NCBI GenBank assembly: GCA_903906315.1
Contig: CAIVJW010000123.1
Location: 1 to 64,000, forward strand
Origin: an uncultured delta proteobacterium
GTDB taxonomy: Bacteria > Myxococcota_A > Polyangia > Polyangiales > Polyangiaceae
DNA length: 64,000 nt
Direction of reading: 5' to 3'
The translations under genes were made by a program, and so were the position numbers. Below the pieces are notes generated by a model. It was not told the DNA's origin. It ran no database searches and worked only from the letters and a program-made list of their open reading frames with translations. Positions within the stretch are counted from its first letter, which is position 1; each line of letters starts with the position of its first letter. This document shows, in pieces, positions 31,457 through 42,260 of the stretch.

Positions 31457-31486
31457 TTGACGCCCCTCCCAGCGCCCGGATACGTT
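31457..31486 (+). promoter_or_regulatory. Candidate promoter of the FHA-GGDEF gene
   Basis: TTGACG (31457-31462), 18 bp, TACGTT (31481-31486). The start codon is at 31581, giving a leader of roughly 85-90 nt. Confidence 0.45.
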
Positions 31487-31580
31487 GGGCGCACCGGCCT
31501 TCGGCGGTTCCCGTCGAGCCCCGGTCGGGCGATCCCGGCGTTCCGGGGCCTCCGCCCGTCCGCCTGGTCGCGCTGACGAC

Positions 31581-32477
<897 letters not shown>

Positions 32478-32538: not shown

Positions 32539-33888
32539 ATGGCCCCCCTGAGCGAGCTGCCCGCGGCGACCGCTGGCGGCGACGAGCTGCCCTTTCTCCG
32601 CACCGCCGTTCCGGGGCCGACCTCGCGGCGCGCGACCGAGCGCCTCGAGCGCGTCGAGTGCCCCGCGTTCGGCCAGCGGCGGCGCGACCGCCAGGAGAAG
32701 AGCGGCGCGGAGATGGCGCCGATCGTGCTCGGCTGGGGCAAGGGGTCGAACCTCGTCGACGTCGACGGCAACCGCTTCGTCGACCTCTGCGCCGGCTTCG
32801 GGTCGGTCCTCCTCGGGCACGGCGACAAGGCGGTCGCGCGCGCGATCGAGGGGCAGTCCGAGCGCCTGATGCAGGGGCTCGGCGACGTGTACGGCAGCGA
32901 CGCGAAGGTCGCGCTGCTCGAGCGGCTCTCGCAGCTCCACCCCGCGCCGGGCGCCCAGGTGCTGCTCGCGCAGAGCGGCAGCGACGCGGTCACGGCGGCG
33001 ATCAAGACGGCGGTGCTCGCGACAGGTCGCCCCGGCGTCTTGGCCTTCGAGGGCGCGTACCACGGCCTCGGCTACGGTCCCCTGCCGGCCTGCGGGCTGC
33101 GCGAGAGCTACCGCGCTCCCTTCGCGGCGCAGCTCAGCCCGCACGTCCGCTTCGCGCCGTACCCGCGCGGCGAAGGGGACCTCGACCGCGCGCTCGACGC
33201 CGTCGAAGCGGCCCTTCGCCTCGGCGAGGTCGGCGCCGTGCTCGTCGAGCCGGTGCTCGGTCGCGGTGGCTGCGTCGTGCCGCCGGACGCATTTCTCCCG
33301 CGCCTCTGCGAGCTCGCGCATCGGCACGGCGCGCTCGTCGTCGCCGACGAGATCTGGACCGGCCTCGGCCGCGCCGGATCGCCCCTGCGATCGCTCGCGA
33401 TCGGGGCGAAGGTCGACGTGCTCTGCCTCGGCAAGGGCCTCGGCGGCGGCCTGCCGATCTCCGCGTGCATCGCCGGGCCCGACGTCATGGGCGCGTGGGC
33501 CCGCGGCGGCGAGGTCGTCCACACGTCGACGCACGCCGGCGCCCCGCTCGCGTGCGCGGTCGCGCTGGCGACCCTGGAGGCGGTCCGATCGCGCAAGCTC
33601 CCCGACCGGGCGCGCGAGGTGGGCGCGCGGGTGATCGCGACGCTGCGCGAGGATCTCCGCGACGTCGACGCCGTCGTGGAGGTGCGCGGGGTCGGCCTGA
33701 TGATCGGGATCGAGCTCGCGACCCCCGAGCTCGGCCTCGCTGCCATGCGCGGGCTGCTCGAGTCGGGCTTCGTCACGATCACGGGCGGCGCCCGCGGCGA
33801 GGTGCTGACGTTGACGCCTGCGCTCACGATCAGCGAGGAGCTCTTCTCCGCGGTCGGACCGGCGCTCCGCCGCGTGATCGGGGCGTAA
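32539..33888 (+). CDS. Class III PLP-dependent aminotransferase
   Basis: 449 residues, GAGGAG five bases before the ATG. Fold-type I class III landmarks: [57 protein letters not shown] and Lys299 in [11 protein letters not shown], which binds PLP. Relatives act on omega-amino acids, diamines or amino-aldehydes (4-aminobutyrate, putrescine, glutamate semialdehyde). The first 45 residues are an extra low-complexity extension. The LuxE-like gene starts 113 bp downstream and the LuxC-like gene directly after, suggesting this enzyme may aminate an aldehyde they make; that is inference. Confidence 0.9.
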
Positions 33889-34001
33889 CGCCGGGGCCGC
33901 GAGCGGCCCGTCCGGGGGCCCGCGGGGGTCGATCGCCCGGGCGCGCGAGGTGCGCAGCCGCGGTCGCACGGCGGCGCGCTCGGCGTGCTAGGACTCGCGC
34001 C

Positions 34002-35111
34002 GTGGACGCCATGGCGACCAGCGAGGCCCTGCACGAGCGCGTGCGCGCCCTGATCGCGGCCGCTTCGCGGGGCGCGCCGGCCGAGCCCTTCGACGACCTC
34101 GCCCTCGCGATCGCCCGCTTCCAGGCCGATCACGTCGCGCCGGTCGCGCGGCTCGTGCGCGCGCGCGGCCTCGATCTCGCTCGGGCCACGTCGGCCGCCG
34201 CGATCCCCGCGGTGCCGTGCGACGTGTTCCGGCTGGCCCGCGTCGCGGCGCACGCCCCCGCGCTCGACGCGCGCGTGTTCCGGACGAGCGGCACGTCGCA
34301 GGGGCGCGAGGCGCGCGGTGAGCACCCGCTCCGCACGGTGGCGACCTACGAGGCCGCGGCGCTCGCGTTCGGCGCGGGCATGCTCTGGCCCGAGGGCGCC
34401 GGGCTGCGGTCGATCGCGCTCGCGCCCTCGGTCGACGAGGCGCCCGACTCGTCGCTCGGCTTCATGATCGACCTCTTCGCCCGCGCGCTCTCCGGGCCGG
34501 CGAGCGCGCACGTGCGCGACGGCGCGATCGACCTCGACGGGCTCGGTCGGGCCTGCGAGGCCGCGCGCGCCGCCGGCGAGCCCGCGCTCGTGATGGGCAC
34601 GTCGTTCGCGTTCGTGCACCTGATAGACGAGCGATCGGGCCGCGACCTCTCGCTGCCGCGCGGCAGCCGCGCGATGCAGACCGGGGGCTTCAAGGGGCGC
34701 TCGCGCGAGGTCGGGGCGGGCGAGCTCCGCGCCGCGATCGCCACGGCGTTCGCGCTGCCCGAGGCGGCGGTCGTCGGCGAATACGGGATGACGGAGCTCT
34801 CGAGCCAGCTCTACGAGGCGACGCTCGTCGCGCCCGGCGTCGGTCGCCACGGCGTGTACGTCGCGCCCCCGTGGGTCCGCGTCACGGCCGTCGACCCCGC
34901 GACGCTCGCGCCCCTGGCGGAGGGCGAGGTCGGCCTCGCCCGCATCGTCGACCTCGCGAACGTCGACTCGGCGGTCGCCATCCAGACGTCGGACCGCGTG
35001 CGGATCGGCGACGATGGCGTCGAGCTCCTGGGTCGCGCGCCGGGCGCGACGCCGCGCGGTTGCTCGATCGCGATCGACGAGCTGCTCGGGCGCGACGCGC
35101 GGGGCGGGTGA
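34002..35111 (+). CDS. LuxE-family acyl-protein synthetase
   Basis: 369 residues from GTG 34002, eight bases after AGGA; an ATG three codons on is the alternative. The adenylation-like motif RTSGTSQGR (94-102), GFMIDLFARAL, MGTSFAFVHL, QTGGFKGRSREV and EYGMTELSSQ are the LuxE family blocks. Cys354 in RGCSIAIDELL matches the C-terminal Cys that carries the acyl group in Vibrio LuxE. It activates a fatty acid as acyl-AMP, holds it as thioester and hands it to the reductase. The LuxC-like gene begins one base after the stop. Confidence 0.9.
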   Translation: MDAMATSEALHERVRALIAAASRGAPAEPFDDLALAIARFQADHVAPVARLVRARGLDLARATSAAAIPAVPCDVFRLARVAAHAPALDARVFRTSGTSQGREARGEHPLRTVATYEAAALAFGAGMLWPEGAGLRSIALAPSVDEAPDSSLGFMIDLFARALSGPASAHVRDGAIDLDGLGRACEAARAAGEPALVMGTSFAFVHLIDERSGRDLSLPRGSRAMQTGGFKGRSREVGAGELRAAIATAFALPEAAVVGEYGMTELSSQLYEATLVAPGVGRHGVYVAPPWVRVTAVDPATLAPLAEGEVGLARIVDLANVDSAVAIQTSDRVRIGDDGVELLGRAPGATPRGCSIAIDELLGRDARGG

Positions 35112-35112
35112 C

Positions 35113-36210
35113 GTGAGCGCGCCTGCCGACGACGCCTTCGCGCGCCGGCTCGGGCGCGTCGAGCGCGTGGTCGCGGCCGGTCGTCGCGTCGCGGATCCGG
35201 GCGATCCGCTGGGCGCCGAGGCCCGTCGTCGCCTGCCGGGCGTCTCGGGCCTCTCGCCCGAGGGGGTCGAGCTCGCGCTCGCCGATCACCTCGAGGTGTG
35301 CCCCACGGCCGACGATCTGGCCGCGCTGGTGGGCGGGGCCGGATCCGCGCCGGCGTGCCACGTCGTGCTCTCGGCGAACGTCTGCGTCGCCGCGCTCCGC
35401 GCCTTCGCCGTCGCGGTCGCGACCTCCGAGGCCGTGCGCGTGCGGCCCTCGCGCCGCGACCCCGTGCTCGCCGAGATCCTCGCGGCGGCGCTCGCCGAGG
35501 ACGCGCGCTTCGCCGCGGCCGGCGGGCTCGTCGCGATCGTGGCCGAGGTCGCGCCGCGGCCGGGCGACGAGCTGCACGTCTACGGCTCCGACGCGACGGT
35601 CGCCGCGCTGCGCCCCTCGGTCGCCGCGGGGGTCGTCGTGCGGGGTCACGGTACCGGCCTCGGCCTCGCGGTCATCGGCGCCGGCTGCGACCTCGGCGGG
35701 GCCGCGGCCGCGCTCGCGCGCGACGTCGTGGCCTTCGACCAGCGAGGCTGCCTGTCGCCGCGCGTCGCCCTCGTCGAGGGCTGCGCGGCGCGCGCGGAGT
35801 CGTTCGCGGTCGCGCTCGATCGCGAGCTCGCCGCGTGGGGTGACCGCGTGCCGCGCGGGGCGATGGCGCTCGAGGCGGTCGCCGAGGTCGCGCTCTACCG
35901 CTCCGCGATCGAGGCGATCGGCACGTTTCACGCGGGCCGCGCGCACGCGGTCGGCGTGGACCCGTCCCCCCGCGCGATCGTCCTCGCGCCGGCCGATCGC
36001 GTCGTGCACGTCGTCGCGGCGGAGGCCGCCGACGCCGCGCGCCTCGTCGGGCCGTGGGCTCCGCTCGTCGCCGCGCTCGGGGCCGACGACCTCGCCGCGC
36101 CGCTCGCGCGGGCGGTAGCCGGGATCACCCCCGGCGCGCGCAGGTCGGCCCTCGGCAGCATGCAGCGGCCGCCGCTCGACGGTCCGGTGGACCGCCGAAG
36201 GGCGCGCTGA
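35113..36210 (+). CDS. LuxC-like acyl-CoA/fatty-acid reductase
   Basis: 365 residues from GTG. The aldehyde-dehydrogenase-like fold shows HVVLSANVCVAALRAFA for the cofactor domain, then VYGSDATVAALRP. The catalytic Cys213 sits in FDQRGCLSPR, equivalent to the QQACxSPQ motif of LuxC. It is about 100 residues shorter than Vibrio LuxC, mainly at the N-terminus. With LuxE it would reduce an activated fatty acid to the aldehyde using NADPH. No luciferase genes (luxAB) or thioesterase luxD are present, so bioluminescence is excluded here. Translationally coupled to the LuxE-like gene. Confidence 0.87.
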   Translation: MSAPADDAFARRLGRVERVVAAGRRVADPGDPLGAEARRRLPGVSGLSPEGVELALADHLEVCPTADDLAALVGGAGSAPACHVVLSANVCVAALRAFAVAVATSEAVRVRPSRRDPVLAEILAAALAEDARFAAAGGLVAIVAEVAPRPGDELHVYGSDATVAALRPSVAAGVVVRGHGTGLGLAVIGAGCDLGGAAAALARDVVAFDQRGCLSPRVALVEGCAARAESFAVALDRELAAWGDRVPRGAMALEAVAEVALYRSAIEAIGTFHAGRAHAVGVDPSPRAIVLAPADRVVHVVAAEAADAARLVGPWAPLVAALGADDLAAPLARAVAGITPGARRSALGSMQRPPLDGPVDRRRAR

Positions 36211-36291: not shown

Positions 36292-39200
36292 CTAGCGGCG
36301 GCGGCGGCGCGCCAGGCCCATCGCGGCGAGCGCGAGGCCGAACGCGGCGAAGGCGCCTTCGTCGTTCGAGGAGCCGGTGCTCGACACCGCGCACGCGCCG
36401 TTGCCGGACGCGACCACGCTCGAGCACTTCTTCTCCTCGCAGAGCGCGCTTTCGCACTCGTTTGCCGCGGCGCAGAGCGCGCCTTCCGGCTGCTTCGGCG
36501 TGCAGGCGCCCGCCCTGCAGTAGTCGGCTGCCGGGCACTCGGCGTCCGTCGTGCAGCCCGTCGTCGGCGCGCACTTCTGCGTCGTGAGGTCGCACTTCGT
36601 TGTCCGGCACTCGGAGTCCGCGTTGCACGGACCGTCGCCCGGGAGCAGGCCGCAGGTGTCGTCCTTCGTGTCGCAGACCCCCGCCTTGCAGACGCGAGCG
36701 CCCACGGCGTCGTCGCAGGTCGAGACGTTCGGCGGCACCTTCGGCAGGTGCGATCCGTTGTCGAGCTTCGCGTGGCAGACGCCGGCCGCTCCGCCGACGC
36801 CGTCGCACCACTCGGTGGCGGCGCAGTCCGCGTCGAGGTGGCAGCCCTGCAGGCAGGTGCCGCTGCCGACGTCGCAGATCGGGCCCTTCGGGTTGCCCTT
36901 GCAGTCCGCGTCCGAGGCGCACTTGTCGCACGAGCCGCTCAGGCAGAGCGGCGCGTCGGCCTTGGCGCAGGCGTGCTTGGCGCCGCTGTCGAGATCGCCG
37001 TCGCACGGGACGCACGTCGACGTCGGCGCGTCGCAGATCGGCTTCGCGTCGGTGCACTTCGTCGCGTTCTTCGCGGTGCACTCGACGCACGCGCCGGAGT
37101 TGACGTCGCACACCGGCTTCTGGCTCGGGCACTCCGAGTCCTTCTTGCAGCCCGTGGGGGCGCCGCAGAGGCCGTTCGTGCACACGCCCGATCGGCAGAT
37201 GACGCCGCCGTCGGCGCCCGTGCAGGGCCCGTCGCCGTCGGCGAGGCCGCACTTGTCGTCCGCGGGATCGCAGACCGCGCTCGCGCAGACGAGCTTGGCC
37301 GCGTCGGCGGTGCACTTCCCGTCGAGCGTCGGCGACGAGTGCGGCGCGTCCTTGGGCATCGCCGCGCCGTTCGCGAGCTTCGGCTTGCACGTGTGCGAGC
37401 TCTCCTCGCACCAGTCGCCGTTCGAGCAGTCCGCGTCGACGTTGCAGCCCGTCTTGGGCTCGCACAGGCCGTTGACGCTGCACTTGCCCGAGCGGCATGC
37501 GCCCGGATCCTGCTGCGTGCACGGGCCGCTGCCGTCCGCGTAGCCGCAGAGGTTGTCCTTGTCGCAGACGCCGCTCGTGCAGACGAGCTTGCCGGCGTCC
37601 GCCGTGCAGGTGCCGTCGAGCGTCGGGCCCTGGTGGGGCGGGTCCGTCGGCATCGGCTGGCTGTTGGGCAGCGTCGGCGTGCACGTGTGCGTGCCGATGT
37701 TGCACCAGTTGCCGGCGGCGCAGTCGCCGTCGACGTTGCAGCCGCCCGCGGGCTGGCAGAGCCCGTTCGCGCTGCAGGCGCCCGACCGGCAGACGCTGCC
37801 GGCGTTCTGCGGCGTGCACGGTCCGTCGCCGTCCGCGTAGCCGCACAGGTTGTCCTTGCCGTCGCAGACGCCGCTCGTGCAGACGAGCGCCCCCGCTTCC
37901 GGGGTGCACGTGCCGTCGAGGGTCGGCTGCGCGTGCGGCGGATCGACCGGGACCGGCTGGCCGTTGGGCAGCGTGGCCGCGCACGCGTGCACGCTCTCGT
38001 TGCACCACTCGCCCTGGGGGCAGTCGCCGTCGACGTTGCAGCCGGCGGCCGGCTTGCAGAGGCCGTCCTGGCCGCAGGACTTGGAGCGGCACACGACGGC
38101 CGCGTTCTGGGCATCGCAGGGGCCGGTCCCGTCGGCGTAGCCGCAGAGGCCGTCGTTCGCGTCGCACACGAGGCTGATGCACACGAGCTTGCCGGCTTCC
38201 GGCGTGCAGGTGCCATCGAGCGTCGGGGTCTTGTGCGGCGGGTCGCTCGGCACCGGCTGGCCGTTGTCGAGCGTCGGGCTGCATGCGTGGCTCTGGATGT
38301 TGCACCACGTGAACGGGCCGCAGTCGCCGTCGACGTTGCAGCCGCCCTGCGGCATGCAGGTGCTGGCGATGCTGCACGCGCCCGAGCGGCACACCGAGCC
38401 GCCGTTCGCCTTCGTGCAGGGGCCGTCGTCGTTGGCGTAGCCGCACTTGTCGTCGGCCGCGTCGCAGACGCCGCTCGTGCAGGTCAGCGTCGCCGCCGCC
38501 TGCGTGCACTTGCCGTTCAGCGTCGGGTTCTGGTGCGGCGGATCGCTCGGGACGCCGAGGCCGTTGGCGAGCTTGGGCGTGCAGGTGTGCGTGCCCTCGT
38601 TGCACCAGTTGCCGTTCGAGCAGTCCGCGTCGACGTTGCAGCCGCCAGCCGGCTCGCAGAGCCCGTTGGCGCTGCACGATCCGGAGCGGCAGACGTTCGC
38701 GCCGTTCTGCTGGGTGCAGGGGCCGTCGCCCGTCGCGTAGCCGCACTTGTCGTCGGCCACGTCGCAGACGCCGCTCGTGCAGGTCAGCGTCGCCGCCGCC
38801 TGCGTGCACTTGCCGTTCAGCGTCGGGTTCTGGTGCGGCGCGTCCGTCGGGACGGAGAGGCCGTTGCCGAGCGTCGGCGTGCACGCGTGCGTCGCCATCG
38901 CGCACCAGTTGCCGTTCGAGCAGTCGGCGTCGACGTTGCACCCGCCCGAGGGCTGGCACAGGCCGTTGGCGCTGCACTTGCTCGATCGGCAGACGGTCGC
39001 GCCGTTCTGCTGCGTGCACGGGCCGTCGCCGTCGAGGTAGCCGCAGAGGTCGTCCTTGGTGTCGCAGACGCCGCTCGTGCAGACGAGCGTGCCGGCCGCC
39101 GCCGAGCACTTGCCGTCGAGCGTCGGGGTCTTGTGCGGCGGGTCGCTCGGGACGGGCTTGCCGTTGGCGAGCGTCGGCGTGCACGTGTGCGCCCCGACGT

Positions 39201-42198
39201 TGCACCAGTTGCCGGCCGAGCAGTCGCCGTCGACGTTGCAGCCGCCAGCCGGCTCGCAGAGCCCGTTGACGCTGCAGGCGCCGGATCGGCAGACCTTGAT
39301 CGCGTCTTGCTTGGTGCAGGGCCCCTCTCCGACGTCGTAGCCGCAGAGGTTGTCCTTGGTGTCGCAGACGCCGCTCGTGCAGACGAGCGCGCTCGCCTGG
39401 GGCGTGCAGGTGCCGTCGAGCGTCGGGCTCTGGTGGGGCGGGTCGCTCGGGACGGGCTTGCCGTTGGCGAGCGTCGGCGTGCACGTGTGCGTCGCGATCG
39501 CGCACCAGTTGCCCGCCGAGCAGTCGCCGTCGATGTTGCAGCTGCCGGCCGCCATGCAGGTGCCGGCGACGCTGCACACGGTCGAGCGGCAGACCGTCGC
39601 CTGGTTCGCCTTCGTGCAGGGGCCGTCGCCGTTCGCGTAGCCGCACTTGCTGTCGGCGAGGTCGCAGACCTTCGCCTGGCACACGAGCGTCGCGGCCGCG
39701 GCGGTGCAGGTGCCGTTCAGCGTCGGGTTCTTGTGCGGCGGGTCGTTCGGCATCGCCTGGCCGTTCGGGTACGGCGCCGTGCAGGTGTGCGTGTTCTCGA
39801 AGCAGAAGCCGCCGGCGCAGTCGCCGTCGACGTTGCAGCCGCCGGCCGGCTCGCAGGTGCCATCGACGCTGCACGCGGTGGATCGGCACACGGTCGCGCC
39901 GTTCTGTTGCGTGCAGGGGCCGACGCCCACCGGGAAGCCGCACTTGTCGTCGCTCGCGTCACAGACGCCGCCCGCACAGACGAGGAGCGCCGCCGCGGCG
40001 GTGCACTTCCCGTTCAGCGTGGGGCCCGAGTGGGGCGCGTCCGTCGGCATCGCCGTGCCGTTCGGGACCTTGGCCGTGCAGGTGTGCGTGGTCTCGAAGC
40101 ACCACGTGCCGCCGCCGCAGTCCGCGTCGACGTTGCAGCCGCCGGCCGGCTCGCAGAGCCCGTTGGCGCTGCACGCCGCGCTGCGGCAGACGACGGCCGC
40201 GTTCTGCTGAGTGCAGGGGCCGCGGTTGACGTCGTAGCCGCACTTCAGGTCCGGATCACAGACGGCCGATCGGCACACGGTCGCGCCGTTCTGCGCCGTG
40301 CACGGGCCGTCCCCGTTGAGGTAGCCGCACAGGTTGTCCTTGGTGTCGCAGACCGCGCTCGTGCAGACGAGCGTGCCGGCGGCCGCGGAGCAGGTGCCGT
40401 TCAGCGTCGGGTTCTGGTGGGGCGGGTCGGTCGGGATCGCGACGCCGTTCGCGAGCTTCGGCGCGCACACGTGCTGGGACTCGTTGCACCACAGGCCCGC
40501 ACCGCAGTCGGCGTCGACGTTGCAGCCGCCCGCAGGCTGGCAGAGGCCGTTCACGCTGCACGAGGTGGACCGGCACACCACGCCGCCGTTGCCGGCGGTG
40601 CAGGGGCCGTCGCCGTTCGCGTAGCCGCACTTGCCGTCCGGATCGCAGACGCCCGATCGGCAGACGACGGCCGCGTTGGCCTGCGTGCAGGTGCCGTCGC
40701 CGTTCGCGTAGCCGCACTTGAGGTCCGGGTCGCAGACGGCCGACCGGCAGACGACCGCGGCGTTCGCGTTGGTGCACGGCCCGCTCTTGTTCAGGAACCC
40801 GCACTTGCTGTCGCCCACGTCGCAGACGGCGCTCGTGCAGACGAGCGCGCCGGCGGCGGCGTTGCAGGTGCCGTTCAGCGTCGGGTTCGCGTGCGCCGCG
40901 TCGATCGGCATGGCCGTCCCGTTCGGGAGCGTCGGGAGGCAGGCCGCCACCGGCGAGATGTGGCACCAGTTGCCGGCCTGGCAGTCCGAGTCCGCGTAGC
41001 ACCCGATGATCGTCGTGACCTTCGAGCCGTAGAGCGGGCTGACGGCCGTCGCGTAGATGTCGTAGTCGCCCTGGGTGACGACCCCGGTCGCGCCGGCGTT
41101 GATGTTCAGCGTGATCGTGTAGGTGCCCGAGGCGCCGGCCTTGAGCGCGCCGATCGTGCACTGGACGAGGCCCACGTTGCCGGCACCCGGGTCGGTGCAC
41201 GTGAGGCCGGGCGCGTTCAGCGACACGAACGTCGTGTTCGGTGGCGTGTTGAAGTCGACCTTCACGCCGGCCGCGTCCGTCGGCGACCCGTCCTTGTAGT
41301 TGAGCGTGTAGGTGATGTTGGTGCCGGCGTTCGCGGCCTTGGGCGCGGTCGCCGCGACGAACAGACCGGGCACCGACGTGCCGACGCTGTCGACGTACAC
41401 CTGACCGTAGTGGCCGCCGAGCGAGCAGCCGGCGCCGATGATCTCGAGCTGGACGCTGTCACCCGCCTTGATCCCCGCCCCACCGGGGATGTCGATGAGC
41501 GTCCAGTCCGTGTAGTAGATGTTGTTCGAGACCTTCCACGCCACGCCCGGCTGGGCGCTGAAGTTGAAGTCCTGATAGAGCACCTTGGCCGTCGTCAGGT
41601 TCGTCAGCTGGACGTAGAAGTACGGCTGTTCGGTCTGCGCGTGGTTCGGGTTCTCGAGGACCGGCGCGAGCGTCGCGCGCACGTGGATCTGTCCGTCGGA
41701 GGGGTCGATGTCGCCCGCGCCGACGGTCATCGTCTGCGTGAGCGTGTTGACGTTGCGGCCGTGGTTGTTCGTGTTGTTGCTGAGGCCCTGGCCATTGACG
41801 ATGGCGACCTTGTTGCCGAACTTCGGCCAGCGGAAGGTCGCGCCCGCCCCGAGGCCGGGGTCGGTCTGCGTCTCCGGCCCGCCGGGCGCGTTGAGCGTGA
41901 TCGTCAGCGGATCGCCGCCCGCCGTGAGGTTAAGCCCGGCCTTGGTCTGCGGCGTCTGCAGCGTGATGCCCAAGTTCTGGTTCGTGAGCACCGTCCAGCT
42001 CGGCGGCGGCTGGCCGGCCGTGCCGGTCTCGAAGCCGCCGTTCAGGAACACGGCGCTCGCGGCCTCGCCGGTGTGCTCGTGCCCATCGCCCGGCGCGGGG
42101 GCCTGTTGGGTGCCGCCTCCCTGCGCGCAAGCGGTCAACGCGACCGCCGCCGCGAGGCCCGCGAGCCGACCCCAGAGCGGGGTGGCGCGCCGTTTCAC
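36292..42198 (-). CDS. Giant Cys-rich repeat lipoprotein with C-terminal anchor
   Basis: 1968 residues from GTG 42198, preceded by AAGGAAG and GGAG. Lipobox LTAC at Cys24. An N-terminal beta-rich region (about 45-300: FLNGGFETG, then YFYVQLTNL) and a DUF11-like domain (about 310-395) lead into twelve Cys-rich repeats of about 100 residues, each opening GCNVDADC and holding CTSGVCD, CGY, GDGPCT, VCRS and C motifs. More divergent Cys-rich modules follow. The end is a hydrophobic helix plus RRRRR (GAFAAFGLALAAMGLA), like a MYXO-CTERM sorting tail. Having both a lipobox and such a tail is odd. Probably a surface or matrix protein. It lies 62 bp after the OmpA-like gene on the same strand. Confidence 0.9.
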   Translation of the reverse strand: MKRRATPLWGRLAGLAAAVALTACAQGGGTQQAPAPGDGHEHTGEAASAVFLNGGFETGTAGQPPPSWTVLTNQNLGITLQTPQTKAGLNLTAGGDPLTITLNAPGGPETQTDPGLGAGATFRWPKFGNKVAIVNGQGLSNNTNNHGRNVNTLTQTMTVGAGDIDPSDGQIHVRATLAPVLENPNHAQTEQPYFYVQLTNLTTAKVLYQDFNFSAQPGVAWKVSNNIYYTDWTLIDIPGGAGIKAGDSVQLEIIGAGCSLGGHYGQVYVDSVGTSVPGLFVAATAPKAANAGTNITYTLNYKDGSPTDAAGVKVDFNTPPNTTFVSLNAPGLTCTDPGAGNVGLVQCTIGALKAGASGTYTITLNINAGATGVVTQGDYDIYATAVSPLYGSKVTTIIGCYADSDCQAGNWCHISPVAACLPTLPNGTAMPIDAAHANPTLNGTCNAAAGALVCTSAVCDVGDSKCGFLNKSGPCTNANAAVVCRSAVCDPDLKCGYANGDGTCTQANAAVVCRSGVCDPDGKCGYANGDGPCTAGNGGVVCRSTSCSVNGLCQPAGGCNVDADCGAGLWCNESQHVCAPKLANGVAIPTDPPHQNPTLNGTCSAAAGTLVCTSAVCDTKDNLCGYLNGDGPCTAQNGATVCRSAVCDPDLKCGYDVNRGPCTQQNAAVVCRSAACSANGLCEPAGGCNVDADCGGGTWCFETTHTCTAKVPNGTAMPTDAPHSGPTLNGKCTAAAALLVCAGGVCDASDDKCGFPVGVGPCTQQNGATVCRSTACSVDGTCEPAGGCNVDGDCAGGFCFENTHTCTAPYPNGQAMPNDPPHKNPTLNGTCTAAAATLVCQAKVCDLADSKCGYANGDGPCTKANQATVCRSTVCSVAGTCMAAGSCNIDGDCSAGNWCAIATHTCTPTLANGKPVPSDPPHQSPTLDGTCTPQASALVCTSGVCDTKDNLCGYDVGEGPCTKQDAIKVCRSGACSVNGLCEPAGGCNVDGDCSAGNWCNVGAHTCTPTLANGKPVPSDPPHKTPTLDGKCSAAAGTLVCTSGVCDTKDDLCGYLDGDGPCTQQNGATVCRSSKCSANGLCQPSGGCNVDADCSNGNWCAMATHACTPTLGNGLSVPTDAPHQNPTLNGKCTQAAATLTCTSGVCDVADDKCGYATGDGPCTQQNGANVCRSGSCSANGLCEPAGGCNVDADCSNGNWCNEGTHTCTPKLANGLGVPSDPPHQNPTLNGKCTQAAATLTCTSGVCDAADDKCGYANDDGPCTKANGGSVCRSGACSIASTCMPQGGCNVDGDCGPFTWCNIQSHACSPTLDNGQPVPSDPPHKTPTLDGTCTPEAGKLVCISLVCDANDGLCGYADGTGPCDAQNAAVVCRSKSCGQDGLCKPAAGCNVDGDCPQGEWCNESVHACAATLPNGQPVPVDPPHAQPTLDGTCTPEAGALVCTSGVCDGKDNLCGYADGDGPCTPQNAGSVCRSGACSANGLCQPAGGCNVDGDCAAGNWCNIGTHTCTPTLPNSQPMPTDPPHQGPTLDGTCTADAGKLVCTSGVCDKDNLCGYADGSGPCTQQDPGACRSGKCSVNGLCEPKTGCNVDADCSNGDWCEESSHTCKPKLANGAAMPKDAPHSSPTLDGKCTADAAKLVCASAVCDPADDKCGLADGDGPCTGADGGVICRSGVCTNGLCGAPTGCKKDSECPSQKPVCDVNSGACVECTAKNATKCTDAKPICDAPTSTCVPCDGDLDSGAKHACAKADAPLCLSGSCDKCASDADCKGNPKGPICDVGSGTCLQGCHLDADCAATEWCDGVGGAAGVCHAKLDNGSHLPKVPPNVSTCDDAVGARVCKAGVCDTKDDTCGLLPGDGPCNADSECRTTKCDLTTQKCAPTTGCTTDAECPAADYCRAGACTPKQPEGALCAAANECESALCEEKKCSSVVASGNGACAVSSTGSSNDEGAFAAFGLALAAMGLARRRRR
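37435..40522 (-). repeat. 300-bp coding repeats in the giant lipoprotein gene
   Basis: The anchor GTTGCA (encoding part of GCNVD on the other strand) recurs at 37441, 37735, 38035, 38335, 38635, 38935, 39235, 39535, 39832, 40132 and 40517. Six consecutive intervals are exactly 300 bp. Two neighbouring units are identical over about 80 bp (38461-38540 and 38761-38840). Confidence 0.9.
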
Positions 42199-42260
42199 GG
42201 CTCCACTTCCTTCATCGCGTTCGTGGCCCCCTGGGGCCGTCGTCCATCGGTGTTGCATGA

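Follow-up and report, generated by a model that had tools for sequence, protein, structure and literature searches.

A LuxE-LuxC-aminotransferase gene set widespread in Myxococcota, a probable route from carboxylic acids to primary amines

Acyl-protein synthetases of the LuxE family and acyl-protein reductases of the LuxC family are familiar chiefly from light production, apart from scattered glycan clusters. Production of amines from fatty acids has been described for TamA-TamH of the tambjamine YP1 pathway in Pseudoalteromonas tunicata, where the aminotransferase TamH uses L-Glu to aminate aldehydes of C7-C14 (PMC9594044). In prodigiosin biosynthesis, PigE links a reduction to an amination (PMC8341465). 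Here we analyze a locus in which a LuxE-LuxC pair is tied to a class III aminotransferase (AT) with an unusual active site. The locus belongs to an uncultured member of the Polyangiaceae (GenBank assembly GCA_903906315.1, contig CAIVJW010000123.1), and the window analyzed is the stretch of 64,000 nucleotides from position 1 of this contig. A literature search, thin on subscription journals, turned up no account of LuxE and LuxC forming a set with an aminotransferase, nor of how such a set is distributed in Myxococcota.

The three genes follow one another on the plus strand in the order AT-LuxE-LuxC:

32539-33888, plus strand: class III, pyridoxal phosphate (PLP)-dependent aminotransferase (AT), 449 amino acids (aa), matching Aminotran_3
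34002-35111, plus strand: LuxE-like acyl-protein synthetase with a predicted adenylating fold of the ANL (adenylate-forming) type, 369 aa, with Cys354
35113-36210, plus strand: LuxC-like acyl-protein thioester reductase, 365 aa, with Cys213

The coordinates and frames were checked and are correct, and agree with the first-pass annotation of this DNA, which had placed the LuxE and LuxC genes one base apart behind an aminotransferase gene: a single base separates the LuxE stop (35111) from the GTG of LuxC (35113). The numbering of Cys354 counts from the GTG at 34002, with the ATG at 34011 being an alternative start of LuxE. The draft genome of the host comprises 8.79 Mb and encodes one LuxE and one LuxC; judged by LuxE, the closest named relatives are Polyangium and Sorangium.

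We consider it probable that these three genes suffice to convert a carboxylic acid to an aldehyde and then to a primary amine; the likeliest substrate is a fatty acid of medium or long chain. LuxE would convert the free acid and ATP to an acyl-AMP and then load the acyl group onto Cys354; LuxC would take the acyl group over on Cys213 and use NAD(P)H to reduce this thioester to the aldehyde; and AT would combine the aldehyde with an amino donor, most likely glutamate, possibly bound via Arg242, to yield the primary amine, which, with a fatty acid as the substrate, would be an alkylamine. These steps are those expected from the established chemistry of the three families, and the acid-aldehyde-amine sequence is the natural reading of the linkage and co-occurrence of the genes, the conservation of the catalytic cysteines and the loss of the carboxylate-binding arginines from AT. 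Family membership, catalytic residues, co-occurrence and loss of the carboxylate-binding residues are all read from the sequences, whereas the direction of flux, the amino donor, the chain length and the fate of the amine are presumed. Thus, the earlier proposal of fatty aldehydes followed by long-chain amines is supported as to the order of the chemical steps, with the long chain as its conjectural part.

LuxE matches the Pfam LuxE family (PF04443) with 25.3 bits, barely over the cut-off of 24.9, but the LuxE family profile aligned over nearly the full length with the LuxE subunit of the solved LuxC-LuxE complex (PDB 7xc6_E; E value, 1.2e-34). The acyl-accepting Cys354 lies in a C-terminal RGC motif, is aligned with the GCS of 7xc6_E and is invariant in the 29 sequences aligned. 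The AlphaFold2 model (pLDDT, the predicted local distance difference test score, of 91.5) has a predicted ANL fold, and the Foldseek list is topped by PaaK1 and other ANL enzymes, with template modelling (TM) scores of about 0.6; the 50 Foldseek matches listed did not include 7xc6_E, although this chain is the best sequence match, and we do not count this against the assignment. LuxC scored 67 bits against the Pfam LuxC family (PF05893; cut-off, 21), and its profile matched the LuxC chain 7xc6_A over nearly the full length (E value, 8.7e-37). The catalytic Cys213 (FDQRGCLSPR) is aligned with the cysteine of YDQQACFS in 7xc6_A and is invariant across 30 aligned LuxC sequences, so both cysteines singled out by the first-pass annotation are indeed conserved among relatives. 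Neither LuxE nor LuxC had a match in the PHROG search, and a phage origin was rejected on this basis. Luminescence was rejected as well, given that no luxAB pair is present: as noted earlier for the window, luciferase genes are missing, and the whole genome holds a lone PF00296 protein, encoded on another contig.

AT is a class III aminotransferase by its Pfam match (Aminotran_3, PF00202; 266.7 bits) and by the catalytic PLP lysine, Lys299, which is present in all 162 clade sequences (this and the following residue counts cover all fetched sequences, near-identical ones included). Its structural matches include ArgD (Z score, 51.6) and PigE (4ppm; Z score, 48.0; root-mean-square deviation, 2.2; 410 residues aligned), and AT scores 220 bits against the NCBIfam PigE model. 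In gamma-aminobutyrate (GABA) and ornithine aminotransferases, the roles of two arginines in substrate carboxylate binding and of a switch glutamate are established. When AT is aligned with GABA aminotransferases, Leu177 replaces the carboxylate-binding arginine that follows YHG, Arg242 (EPVLGRGG) occupies the position of the switch glutamate (EPIQGEGG), and Thr424 replaces the arginine of the C-terminal motif; hence the residues that define GABA, ornithine and acetylornithine aminotransferases (R141/R180, E211/E235 and Arg398/R413) are missing. These replacements are characteristic of the clade: Arg242 is found in 162/162 sequences, compared to glutamate in 16 of 18 paralogues; Leu177 in 156/162, compared to arginine in 14 of 16 paralogues; and arginine at position 424 in none, compared to 14 of 20 paralogues. 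With both carboxylate-binding arginines lost and the switch glutamate changed to arginine, the active site appears to lack substrate-side carboxylate binding, which argues against amino-acid semialdehydes as substrates and is compatible with a hydrophobic aldehyde. Arg242 may serve to bind the amino donor. The earlier remark that relatives of this enzyme handle amino-aldehydes is therefore borne out for the fold, but not for the clade, which lacks the residues those enzymes use. An ordinary arginine or GABA enzyme was rejected in view of the missing residues and of the six further class III aminotransferases over threshold in the host genome.

Conservation of the three genes was assessed in a collection with one genome per species (genome_contigs; 79 loci of LuxE relatives scored) and in a phylum sample of 112 Myxococcota genomes (95 regions fetched and scored); genes in fetched loci were called by GC3 and homology, such that some were missed, and sequence counts include near-identical loci. 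LuxE relatives in the one-genome-per-species collection come almost entirely from Myxococcota. At 47 of the 79 loci, LuxE has AT on one side and LuxC on the other, each no more than a few hundred bases away; about a dozen of the other loci end at a contig edge. The genes frequently abut or overlap; a single metagenome-assembled genome (MAG) of Eremiobacterota has the order LuxE-LuxC-AT. In the phylum sample, LuxE was detected in 96/112 genomes, nearly always in a single copy, with both neighbours in 55 of the 95 regions and AT plus LuxE alone in 18 further ones. The distribution of AT-clade scores is bimodal, at 490-665 bits in 13/13 genomes with LuxE and at most 317 bits in 16/16 genomes without it, and other class III aminotransferases of LuxE-containing genomes remain below 320 bits. 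LuxC was found in 17/17 LuxE-containing genomes, unlinked cases included, and in 1/9 of those without LuxE; the exception, G135, is 84% complete and also lacks AT, which adjoins LuxE in its family. In families f20, f22 and f34, LuxC or AT (AT in f22) is encoded elsewhere in the genome but is still present, and in f35 the genes were lost within the family: G112 has LuxE and LuxC, whereas G099 has neither, nor the clade AT. The unlinked families and the f35 loss are hard to explain unless the three genes belong together, and a chance neighbourhood is ruled out by the conserved linkage and the co-occurrence of unlinked genes. The survey of gene neighbourhoods suggested by the first-pass annotation thus found AT adjacent to luxE and luxC in most Myxococcota and co-occurring with them where the set is split, an outcome that does not refute the earlier proposal. 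The set is missing from some families, among them f32, with genomes of 9-10 Mb; families lacking it are natural controls. Two AT loci stand apart: L247 (G117, contig 88) encodes a second clade-specific AT (490 bits) in a genome where another one adjoins LuxE, and L103 carries a myxobacterial-type AT-LuxE pair on a contig whose label, probably wrong, assigns it to a MAG of Klebsiella pneumoniae.

The same conversion of acid to aldehyde to amine might act on a small, aryl, terpenoid or other non-fatty acid and yield a cofactor, pigment or signal, which we consider unlikely. EhpF (phenazine) and ClxA (aminohydroxybenzoate) are among the LuxE fold matches, LuxE and LuxC are distant from the NCBIfam luminescence equivalogs (24 and 21 bits, with cut-offs of 550 and 750, respectively), and a cofactor would suit the near-universal presence of the set. 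However, the best PDB sequence relatives are the LuxC and LuxE that act on fatty acids, and the likeness to EhpF and ClxA, at 13-15% identity, is one of fold only. Several points weigh against the main proposal of a route from acid to amine. Chain length is not fixed by the sequence, the weakest point of the proposal; aryl acids, too, are substrates of enzymes with the LuxE fold; LuxC falls short of the Photobacterium-type chain by about 110 residues; no lipid gene adjoins the triplet across families; the literature search turned up no assayed enzyme of the AT clade; and, because of near-identical loci and shared ancestry, the co-occurrence represents far fewer than 29 independent events.

We regard it as quite improbable that the LuxE-LuxC aldehyde serves alcohol or ether lipid formation or the acylation of protein or glycan, with AT acting on a different substrate. 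LuxE-LuxC pairs do occur without the clade AT, in flagellin glycosylation islands (PMC7874193, PMC4875605) and in sister sets with a short-chain dehydrogenase (SDR), but in the Myxococcota tested the clade AT tracks LuxE exactly, also where the two genes are widely separated. The sister LuxE-LuxC-SDR sets (L096, L099, L107 and L207) were seen in Desulfosporosinus, near thiG/thiH-like genes, in a Bacillota MAG, in WOR-3 and in a polysaccharide-type cluster. Finally, a polyamine route, in which GABA or beta-alanine would be reduced and aminated to a diamine in place of arginine decarboxylase (speA), is a most improbable reading and was rejected: the AT fold is common to putrescine and GABA aminotransferases, but the distribution of speA is not complementary to that of the triplet, with full-length matches in 6/11 genomes with LuxE and 7/9 without it (three of these seven just below the curated cut-off).

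Among the neighbourhoods of the fetched loci, no partners are conserved across families beyond the three genes themselves, nor does the triplet have fixed secondary-metabolite neighbours across families. In two Myxococcaceae-labelled MAGs, AT-LuxE (L085, 6340-9077; L088, 6622-9056) is located directly behind genes that were identified by eye as apparent rpsD-rpoA-rplQ of the ribosomal alpha operon, a position consistent with housekeeping expression. The single copy, the presence in most of the phylum, the lack of fixed secondary-metabolite neighbours and the alpha-operon position together suggest that the product is more likely a housekeeping one, such as a lipid or a precursor of lipids, than a secondary metabolite of sporadic occurrence. 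A more specific version of the acid-to-amine route, namely, a housekeeping conversion, common to most Myxococcota, by which free fatty acids would become a primary amine of long chain or a lipid derived from it, representing an overlooked lipid class, is put forward tentatively, as on balance doubtful. Unlinked copies adjoin genes without an evident connection, the sole lipid gene being FabH near one AT. At L243 and L244, from a genus in which AT is unlinked from LuxE, a 380-aa open reading frame with no Pfam match abuts AT, with a FabH-like gene at a distance of about 1 kb.

One further gene precedes AT in the same orientation:

31485-32477, plus strand: FHA-GGDEF protein (diguanylate cyclase) with an intact GGEEF motif and an uncertain start codon

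It ends 61 bp upstream of the AT start and is found upstream on the same strand at 42/79 loci of relatives, with conservation mainly within the order. The FHA-GGDEF gene is a conserved neighbour, and a link of the operon to cyclic diguanylate (c-di-GMP) is possible. On the other side, convergent with luxC, the minus strand (36292-42258) encodes a cysteine-rich protein of 1988 aa that contains a DUF11 domain and numerous repeats, each about 95 residues long.

Should a fatty amine or an amine lipid prove to be the product, the set would represent a conserved but unmapped part of myxobacterial chemistry, and three separate enzymes would offer a simple biotechnological means of making primary amines from acids. 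The earlier description of the pathway as not standard in bacteria applies to primary metabolism; elsewhere, it has a precedent in tambjamine biosynthesis (TamA/TamH) and, in part, in that of prodigiosin (PigE).

Compared with the luminescence reductase (7xc6), both subunits are homologous over nearly their whole length, with the catalytic cysteines aligned, but the triplet differs in having no LuxAB, a shorter LuxC, AT as the third partner and single-copy, near-core status in the phylum. TamA-TamH likewise combines ATP-dependent activation of the acid, reduction of the thioester to an aldehyde and class III transamination to an alkylamine, but employs other activating and reducing enzymes, which are fusion proteins encoded in a cluster for a secondary metabolite. 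PigE also joins a thioester reductase to a class III aminotransferase, and 4ppm is among the structural matches of AT, although ArgD structures match slightly better; unlike the triplet, PigE has an AAR-type reductase fused to the aminotransferase, a different acyl substrate and no LuxE. The fusion typical of TamH and PigE is not found here: AT and the reductase are encoded by separate genes, and the reductase belongs to the LuxC family. The LuxE and LuxC of the flagellin islands and of the SDR sets (L096, L107 and L207) are a front end also expected to yield an acyl aldehyde, but their partners are acyl carrier protein, FabG/SDR and glycosyltransferases rather than the clade AT. The occurrence of the LuxE-LuxC pair both with SDR partners and in flagellin islands suggests that it is a reusable front end for making aldehydes. 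Coupling of thioester reduction to transamination is already known; what appears distinctive here is the parts employed, the altered aminotransferase and the retention of the set across the phylum.
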